64,000 nucleotides of DNA from Gammaproteobacteria bacterium (GTDB lineage Bacteria; Pseudomonadota; Gammaproteobacteria; Steroidobacterales; Steroidobacteraceae), in assembly GCA_025357835.1 (NCBI GenBank), contig JANYLM010000135.1, forward strand, positions 1 through 64,000, read 5' to 3'. The translations under genes and the position numbers were made by a program. The notes below the pieces were generated by a model. The model had not been told where the DNA came from, ran no database searches, and worked only from the letters and a program-made list of their open reading frames with translations. Positions 30,601 through 32,846 of the stretch are shown here, piece by piece (position 1 is the first letter of the stretch; each line of letters begins with the position of its first letter).

Positions 30601-30845
30601 GCGACCGGGAGCTGGCGGCAATCGCGGCGGCACTGGGCGCCGGTGATGCTGCCGGGCTGCGCATTTCCGCCCATACACTCAAAGGCGCCAGCGCCAACTT
30701 GCGCGCCGCGGCTCTGAGCGCCGCGGCGGCACAGCTCGAGTCCGCTGCCGGCCATGGCAATAGCTCCCAGCTTTCGGCACTGGCGGAGCATGTGACCACC
30801 GAGGTCACCAGGATGAGCGCCTATTTACGCTCGAGGGCCCGCTAA
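27696..30845 (+). CDS. Hybrid sensor kinase with two receivers and an Hpt domain
   Basis: 1049 residues from ATG 27696 (in-frame start at 27648 lacks support). TM1 (about 30-50), periplasmic sensor, TM2 (about 213-235), PAS-like domain (about 245-370). HisKA has the His in [12 protein letters not shown] (about 400). HATPase_c carries GNAIKF and RDTGIGIP. Receiver 1 starts RILVVDDN (about 637) with Asp in LLDHLMPD. Receiver 2 starts RILLAEDN (about 787) with [12 protein letters not shown]. The C-terminal Hpt domain has [12 protein letters not shown] (about 990). All phosphorelay residues are present. Its last 21 bases overlap the 3' end of the convergent tgt fusion gene. Signal and output regulator are unknown. 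Confidence 0.93.
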
Positions 30846-32846
30846 GAACTGTGGATGCCCCGACACCGCGGCATGCCAAGAAGTGTCATCGGCGGGGCTG
30901 CCGAAGGGAGCCTTGGCGTCGCTGCGCCGCCATTTGGCCAACCATTGCGCCCCCAGCAGCTCGTGAACGTGCGGCGCGGCAGCCGCACGCGGCGATAGTC
31001 CAATCGTAGTTTCCGCCTTGGGCCCGGTACCCCGGCCCTTGGCGACGTAAAAACCGGCCGCCAACAGGGCGGCGCGGACGCTGGTGGAATACGTGTAGGT
31101 AAACAGCTCCGCCGGCTTTTGCGAACATACCCGGGCAAGCTCGCGAAACGCCGACAGCGTCCACAGTGAGCTGTCAGTCTTGAAGGAGAAGGGGTCGAAG
31201 AAAATGATGTCGGGCGGCGGCGCGTCGAATTTTCGGACAGCGAAGTCGCCGGACAACAGCAGCCAATCGATGGTCGAGGTGCCGTTGACCCAGCGGCTAT
31301 CGGACAACAAGGTTCGTGGCGCTGCATGGCGCAAGTGCTTAAACCACCTGACATGATCGAGCGCAAGCTTGAGCGAATCCAGGTCATTCTCGAAGCTCAC
31401 CAAGGTTAGGTGCCGCGAATCGAGCAGTGGAGTTGCATTTTCGACGGCATGGATGGCAGCCATGGCGTTGGCTGCGGCGCCCAATCCCACGTCCCAGACG
31501 ACCACAGGCTCACCTGCCGCAGTTTGCAGACGCTCGATCAGCCGCGACTGCTCTACATACAGCGAGCACGCCTCTTCGGCGGGGTCCGTGACGGAGTGCA
31601 TCACCTCGCCGGAAGACATATCTCGAATGAATCCAATCTCATCACGTACGATGACTTCATACCGCCCACGCCTTAGCTTGAGCCGGCGGCGTGCAGCCTT
31701 GGTGACATGCGTGACCGCTTTTCCGTAACTATCGCGCGCGTCGAGCAAATCGCGCTGAGCGTTGTAAAATGGCAGCCAGGTGTCCGCCAAGATGTGTTGA
31801 CGCATGGTGCGCATCAGTTGCATGTAAAAATGAATATTGTGAAGACTCAGCAGCTGCCAGCCCGTACCCTCATGCACGCGTTGCAGATGAAAGAGATAGG
31901 CGATGGAATAGGTCTTACAGGTATAGCAATGGCAGGCCGGATCGATAGGCCCTTCCATGTCGCGATAGGCGGCCCGGCGCAGATCGCGCCTCCCCAGGCT
32001 GGTGAACGCCACCCCCTGCCTGGCCAGGGAGGTGGGCAGAATACAGTCGAACATGTCGACGCCGCGGTGTACGGCCTCGAGTAGATCACGCGTGGTGCCT
32101 ACGCCCATGAGATATCGCGGCCGATCCTGCGGCAGCAACTCGGTCACGGTGGCCGTGCACTCTTCGCGCTGCGCCCTGGTTTCACCCACGGCAAGGCCGC
32201 CGATGGCGTAGCCGTCGAAGGGTATGTCGGTAATGGCGCGGGCACTCTCGATGCGCAGATCCGAGTAGCTTGCACCTTGCACGATGCCGAACAAAGCTTG
32301 CTCGGAATCACCGCGGGCAGTCAGACTGCGGCGTGCCCAACGATGAGTCAAGTCCATGGCGCTGCGTGCCACATCATGATCCACGGTCGAAGGCACGCAT
32401 TGATCGAGCACCATCATGATGTCGGAGCCGATCACTTTCTGCGTCTCGATGCTGCGTTCCGGGCTCAGACGAACCAAGGTATTGTCGACGTAGCTTTTGA
32501 ATTCGGCGTAGTCCTCACGCATGGTGCGGCTGCCGGGCAATGAGAATATTTGAAAGCCGCCGGAATCGGTCAACACAGAACGCGGCCAATTCATGAAACC
32601 GTGAATACCGCGGAATTTCTCGAAGATCTCCACACCCGGGCGCAACAGCAGGTGATAGGTGTTGGCCAGCAAAACCTGGGCGCCGCTGTCGAGGAGGTCT
32701 TCGCGACGCTGCGACCGCACTGCCGCGTGCGTACCCACCGGCATGAAAGTCGGCGTCAGAACCTCATTATGCCGAGTCGTAAAGCGCGCCGCGCGGGCGC
32801 GCGAACCCGAGGCCGTCGCTTCCAATTTGAATTTCAACCGAGTCAT
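30825..32846 (-). CDS. tgt: tRNA-guanine transglycosylase fused to an MnmC-like methyltransferase
   Basis: 673 residues, far longer than normal Tgt (about 375). Residues 1-375 are Tgt: substrate-binding D94 in [17 protein letters not shown], nucleophile D267 in FDCILPT, and zinc ligands C305, C307, C310 and H336. The tRNA-contacting motif usually read as PTRNARNG is PTSLARQG here, and the usual VQGG is VQGA. Residues about 380-650 form a Rossmann methyltransferase: [14 protein letters not shown] (SAM site) and [13 protein letters not shown], like the methyltransferase part of MnmC. Tgt inserts preQ1/queuine at G34; MnmC-type enzymes methylate modified U34. The start at 32846 is normal for Tgt. 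The 3' end overlaps the hybrid kinase by 21 bases. Confidence 0.85.

Follow-up and report, generated by a model that had tools for sequence, protein, structure and literature searches.

A conserved fusion of a second Tgt and an MnmC2-type methyltransferase that may place N-methylated preQ1 on a changed RNA target

We analysed a 64,000-nucleotide stretch of a Gammaproteobacteria genome (the window) and found that its minus-strand gene at 30825–32846 represents a genuine, conserved fusion subfamily of the queuosine transglycosylase Tgt, of which we found no description in the literature searched. The encoded protein, a second, diverged transglycosylase joined to a putative tailoring methyltransferase of its own, is almost certainly a working two-domain RNA-modifying enzyme. 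Our preferred reading, to which we give a probability of about 40%, is that the fusion inserts preQ1 into RNA at a position outside U33-G34-U35 and then N-methylates the inserted base.

The gene comprises 673 codons and a stop, begins with ATG and contains zero internal stops, and its GC content by codon position (0.616, 0.482 and 0.714) is coding-like. Only two Pfam families match the protein, TGT at residues 16–362 (E 9.7e-135; 31761–32801, minus strand) and Methyltransf_30 at residues 537–617 (E 8.8e-13), as the earlier note, made from the sequence alone, had proposed for a domain search. The fusion scores 430.8 bits against the NCBIfam model Q_tRNA_tgt (TIGR00430), above the curated cut-off of 306.75, and 69.8 bits over residues 412–616 against the MnmC2 domain model (NF033855), below the curated cut-off of 136. 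Together with structural matches, the Methyltransf_30 and MnmC2 models delimit an MnmC2-type methyltransferase domain at about residues 394–673 (30828–31667, minus strand). Between the domains lies a variable linker (about residues 373–393; 31668–31730, minus strand), in which no position is conserved in 90% of 81 aligned fusions. The whole-chain AlphaFold model, made with 39 family rows (A1 and A2 contain 39 of the 81 fusion rows), reached a pLDDT of 89.3 and a pTM of 0.59, with linker pLDDT values of 61 (residues 371–380) and 75 (residues 381–390). At this pTM the mutual orientation of the two predicted domains is uncertain. When the whole model was searched with Foldseek, Zymomonas mobilis TGT entries ranked first, with a target TM of about 0.93. 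A Tgt and an MnmC2-type methyltransferase are joined in a single intact frame, and all motifs that the earlier note had quoted are present in the translation.

A scan of genome contigs returned at least 80 relatives of the fusion with 52–81% identity; we worked with the best 80 ranked by match, a set that favours full-length fusions. Within this set, the alignment of 79 of 80 relatives begins no later than residue 10, reaches at least residue 645 and stays in one open frame. Because these relatives match end to end, we rejected an assembly artefact or a frameshift, and a stop or frameshift between the halves, which the earlier note had named as a possible objection to its claim, is ruled out. 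The single exception, L014, is labelled Bdellovibrio, and its frame ends at 636 aa. There, in a gene at about 4201–6174, the stop shortens the methyltransferase end and reflects either a real loss or a sequencing error.

The TGT half was numbered by aligning the fusion to Zymomonas Tgt and compared with 41 ordinary TGTs of our choosing, namely 21 companions of fusions and 20 from fusion-free genomes of the window's family. TGT residues 94, 148, 150, 190, 217–220, 222 and 267 and the four zinc ligands are identical in all 81 fusions; in Zymomonas numbering, Asp102, Asp156, Cys158, Gln203, Gly230, Leu231, Ala232, Val233, Glu235 and Asp280 are all kept. On the minus strand, these comprise the catalytic Asp94 (Zymomonas Asp102; 32565–32567), the nucleophile Asp267 (Zymomonas Asp280; 32046–32048) and the zinc site of Cys305, Cys307, Cys310 and His336 (31839–31934). 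The preQ1-pocket loop GGLAVGE (residues 216–222; 32181–32201, minus strand) has residues 216–220 and 222 conserved in 81/81, and Zymomonas Leu231, Ala232, Val233 and Glu235 fall within it in the alignment. Asp280 is described as the nucleophile of Zymomonas Tgt (PMC6165067), Leu231, Ala232 and Glu235 are tied to the preQ1/guanine switch, and Cys158 and Val233 are linked to the use of preQ1 rather than queuine (both PMC3660597). We consider preQ1 the probable incoming base of the fusion.

The residues beside the anticodon site tell a different story. In structure 1Q2R, Arg286 and Arg289 are the residues that we take to read U33 and U35. Position 286 is Arg in 41/41 ordinary TGTs and in 0/81 fusions, which carry Gln (57), Ala (12), Ser (9), Lys (2) or Met (1) instead. 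Arg at position 289 is likewise universal in the ordinary set (41/41) and is found in only two of the 81 fusions, the window protein and one other, while Asn at position 290 occurs in 39/41 ordinary TGTs and 0/81 fusions. The family signature is Arg291 (Zymomonas Asn304; 31974–31976, minus strand), which is Arg in 81/81 fusions and Asn in 41/41 ordinary TGTs; even among ordinary Tgts this Asn has exceptions, since the Thermotoga enzyme has Ala aligned there. In the window protein, TSLARQG (residues 272–278; 32013–32033, minus strand) replaces TRNARNG, so that Zymomonas Arg286 becomes Ser and Arg289 is kept.

The earlier note had singled out this motif and the replacement of VQGG by VQGA as possible signs of a changed tRNA recognition or substrate. 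In the first motif, the loss of Arg286 holds family-wide; VQGA is by itself not telling: its Ala is present in 81/81 fusions, but the same position varies in the 21 ordinary companions (Gly 12, Ser 7, Ala 2) and Zymomonas Tgt reads QGS. The broader suspicion that residues beside the RNA site had changed is borne out at positions 286, 289 and 304 across the family. Arg286 is reported to line the cavity that connects the ribose-34 and phosphate-35 pockets in the twisted dimer (PMC5395182), and UGU in a loop is given as the minimal Tgt recognition element (PMC4425180 and PMC10103133). Judged by its arginine pair, the fusion is not an ordinary Tgt. On the simplest reading of the TGT half, base and chemistry would be unchanged and the RNA would be different, and we regard a changed RNA target as likely. 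Against such a change, the window protein retains Arg at 289.

In most bacteria there is a single Tgt, which serves a fixed set of targets. Among the 93 non-carrier genomes of the window's family, 89 gave exactly one TGT match and four gave none. By comparison, all 49 carriers searched (43 of the best 80 relatives and six family fusion loci, together about 46 genomes, with identical-coordinate pairs G100/G061, G102/G093 and G106/G029) contain another TGT match besides the fusion, although this second TGT is a contig-end fragment in G110 and G123 and lies in pieces in G127. The window's genome encodes an ordinary tgt on contig C11, directly after queA, so the suggestion that the fusion might be a second Tgt paralogue stands. 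A queA match was present in 49 of 50 carriers (the same 49 and G000), G124 being the miss, and QueF scored above its cut-off in 36 of 47, a set freed of duplicates and including G000. With these genes, carriers can in general reach preQ1-tRNA and queuosine independently of the fusion. As a separate observation, QueF did not exceed its cut-off in 11 of the 47 carriers, though nearly all keep queA. Salvage of preQ1 or missing contigs could explain these misses, and preQ1 supply is accordingly uncertain in those 11.

For the methyltransferase half, residues 390–673 modeled alone gave a pLDDT of 94.6 and a pTM of 0.92. Foldseek ranked MnmC2 or MnmC structures in all of the first nine places, with 3vyw, 2qy6 (the N-terminal domain of E. 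coli YfcK, which is MnmC) and 3ps9 among the top matches, so that absence of a methyltransferase fold, raised beforehand as a possible objection, is excluded at the level of prediction. Next came an archaeal m4(2)C synthase, and spermidine synthases, which likewise act on primary amines. The putative SAM-binding loop, assigned by homology, is WDVGLGAA (residues 451–458; 31473–31496, minus strand), with W451, D452, G454, L455 and G456 found in 81/81 fusions. Equally invariant are Glu486 (E. coli MnmC Glu101; 31389–31391, minus strand) and Asp551 (Asp178; 31194–31196, minus strand), whose MnmC counterparts are described as critical (PMC3648344). Lys610 is the equivalent of an MnmC residue listed as RNA binding (Lys236; PMC3648344), and at this position 73 of the 81 fusions have Lys and seven have Arg. 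By sequence conservation, both active sites look to have been selected across phyla. The C-terminal half is closest to MnmC2, yet by curated cut-off it is not MnmC2.

MnmC2 adds methyl to the aminomethyl group of U34 (PMC3648344), and preQ1 is 7-aminomethyl-7-deazaguanine (PMC3660597). We infer from this common aminomethyl group of preQ1 and nm5U a chemical link between the two halves of the fusion, which the earlier note had not named. N-Methyl-preQ1 is proposed mainly because the Tgt half would deliver the very group on which MnmC2 acts, and on balance we lean towards preQ1 as the substrate of the MnmC2-like half. In the mechanism that we propose, the Tgt half would use the usual chemistry, with an Asp nucleophile, a covalent RNA intermediate and preQ1 as incoming base, at an RNA guanine outside the standard U33-G34-U35 set, most likely G34 of a tRNA. 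With SAM as donor, the MnmC2-like half would then methylate the primary amine in the aminomethyl side chain of preQ1, as MnmC2 does on nm5U34, to give N-methyl-preQ1 or its dimethyl form. The added methyl would be expected to block conversion of the methylated base to queuosine by QueA.

Several other readings have to be weighed against this one. The two halves might act independently at the wobble position, with G34 exchanged by the Tgt half in certain tRNAs and nm5U34 converted to mnm5U34 by the MnmC2 half in others, which we hold to be unlikely. This would suit the finding that the second half has its best sequence and structural matches in MnmC2, and the census of the same 47 carriers, in which 41 gave no strong MnmC match, 46 gave no MnmM (PF06962, found in one) and 28 gave no separate Methyltransf_30 match above 40 bits. 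A role of this half in making mnm5U34 is nevertheless weakened, because six of the 47 (G131, G135, G136, G137, G138 and G139) have a strong separate MnmC match of 109–125 bits and 13 more have one or two separate, non-fused Methyltransf_30 ORFs of 40–65 bits. Nor does the fusion seem to have replaced MnmC in the window's family: across its 100 genomes the best Methyltransf_30 match outside the fusion was 29.2 bits, in carriers and non-carriers alike, and since non-carriers also lack MnmC, the idea that the fusion stands in for a lost MnmC is not supported there. The fusion seems to do more than supply mnm5U. In the window's own genome, the search for a normal tgt and mnmC that the earlier note had proposed was positive only for tgt; no strong MnmC was found, and the sole other Methyltransf_30 match scored 21.2 bits (22.2 with in-frame neighbours, against a cut-off of 22). 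At G000:C92:28826-29017 (L004), a 284-aa methyltransferase-like ORF has a weak Methyltransf_30 match of 21–22 bits and directly follows an MreB-like ORF. Weak matches of this kind recur in the family.

It is improbable, in our judgement, that the fusion serves the same four GUN tRNAs, competing there with ordinary Tgt and capping preQ1 by methylation, perhaps conditionally. The fully kept preQ1 pocket, the companion Tgt and QueA and the Arg at 289 of the window protein are all compatible with such a role, but at positions 286, 289 and 304 the family departs jointly from 41/41 ordinary TGTs, which an unchanged RNA would not lead one to expect. The methyltransferase might also act elsewhere, on a different atom or base close to the one inserted, or on free preQ1 prior to insertion. 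Domain orientation is open in the model and E. coli TGT is reported to insert a variety of bases (PMC13416341), both of which leave room for this; although nothing specific speaks against it, the kinship to MnmC2 favours the aminomethyl amine on RNA, and we rate the idea as quite improbable. Least credible is a substrate of DNA or non-tRNA RNA. DNA-modifying paralogues of TGT such as DpdA exist (PMC6884629) and the arginine pair is replaced, yet the fusion reaches 430.8 bits with the model for tRNA Tgt, matches no PHROGs or PADLOC family at E 0.01 and lacks both a viral-contig match, as judged by short exact patterns, and a conserved neighbour cluster. Insertion of preQ1 at a changed RNA site followed by its N-methylation remains our preferred reading.

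Among the best 80 relatives, record titles and tree labels place carriers in Pseudomonadota, Bdellovibrionota, Verrucomicrobiota, Spirochaetota and Riflebacteria, with one Myxococcota-labelled record. Most are titled MAG (78 of 80; L030 is also a bin), and the one relative whose title names a strain is L058, Chthoniobacter flavus Ellin428. When 81 fusion TGT domains were placed in a tree with 20 ordinary companions, the fusions fell on one side as a single clade with support of 100/100 on a stem of 1.17, in the presence of long branches among the ordinary companions (L110, L112). Seven of 100 genomes in the window's family carry the fusion, which is complete in five and truncated by contig ends in G060 and G068, and in a class sample of 274 genomes the methyltransferase half was matched at E 1e-20 or better only in the window's genome. 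The window protein groups in a 12-row clade with the Bdellovibrionota-labelled L013 and L014. This grouping and the patchy distribution suggest horizontal transfer of the fusion.

Some individual records merit mention. Two MAGs titled 'Candidatus Eisenbacteria' (L008 and L010) encode fusions about 75% identical to that of the window and sit inside gammaproteobacterial rows, a placement that reflects either recent transfer or misbinning. In L010, a stop-free frame extends more than 420 codons upstream of the fusion start. Lake or pond names (Lac Pavin, Baikal, Erken and pond bins) appear in the titles of several carriers, an uncounted hint of a freshwater bias.

In the window, the fusion gene is flanked by a convergent hybrid histidine kinase gene, which it overlaps by 21 bases, and by CheW/MCP genes. 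The CheW and MCP frames themselves overlap by 98 bases (window 33496–33593, minus strand). The promoter and terminator scan found one promoter-like element against 0.6 expected and three terminator-like elements against 1.9 expected. From the available flanks of 81 loci, we collected 606 neighbouring ORFs; the largest common cluster covered five loci, and none of the neighbours lends support to the proposed pathway. Six short exact peptide patterns gave zero matches in viral contigs, and neither PHROGs nor PADLOC held a family matching the fusion at E 0.01. Fifty plasmid records matched, none over 80% of the query, and among the 15 matches listed only the TGT part was covered. With no conserved neighbours, no viral match and only partial plasmid matches, the enzyme looks self-contained.

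Compared with bacterial Tgt (TIGR00430; Zymomonas mobilis, E. coli), the fusion family has a like fold, nucleophile, preQ1 pocket and zinc site, but has Arg286, Arg289 and Asn304 replaced, adds a C-terminal methyltransferase and exists as a paralogue beside another TGT. It resembles MnmC2 (Aquifex aeolicus 3vyw and the N-terminal domain of E. coli MnmC) in fold and in the Glu101/Asp178 pair, while scoring below the curated cut-off, and differs from bifunctional MnmC in that it lacks the C-terminal FAD oxidase domain and has TGT instead. DpdA, the DNA-modifying paralogue (PMC6884629), offers a parallel as another TGT paralogue with a presumed new target; unlike it, the fusion has no common gene cluster (at most five of 81 loci) or viral match, and it scores as a tRNA Tgt. 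Our literature search, with preprints and most subscription journals outside its scope, found no description of a Tgt–MnmC fusion or of enzymatic N-methyl-preQ1, and the fusion architecture may already be listed in domain databases. O6-Methyl preQ1 has been studied as a riboswitch cofactor (PMC8450960).

For RNA labelling, the fusion might offer a naturally occurring Tgt whose RNA specificity is altered. A second Tgt that is conserved in several phyla, with swapped RNA-site residues and its own methyltransferase, predicts a concrete novel nucleoside and a further group of modified RNAs. Tentatively, an undescribed N-methyl-preQ1, or its dimethyl form, may occur at non-GUN guanines, in which case preQ1 would be a branch point of the queuosine pathway, leading to two products on two separate sets of tRNAs across several bacterial phyla.
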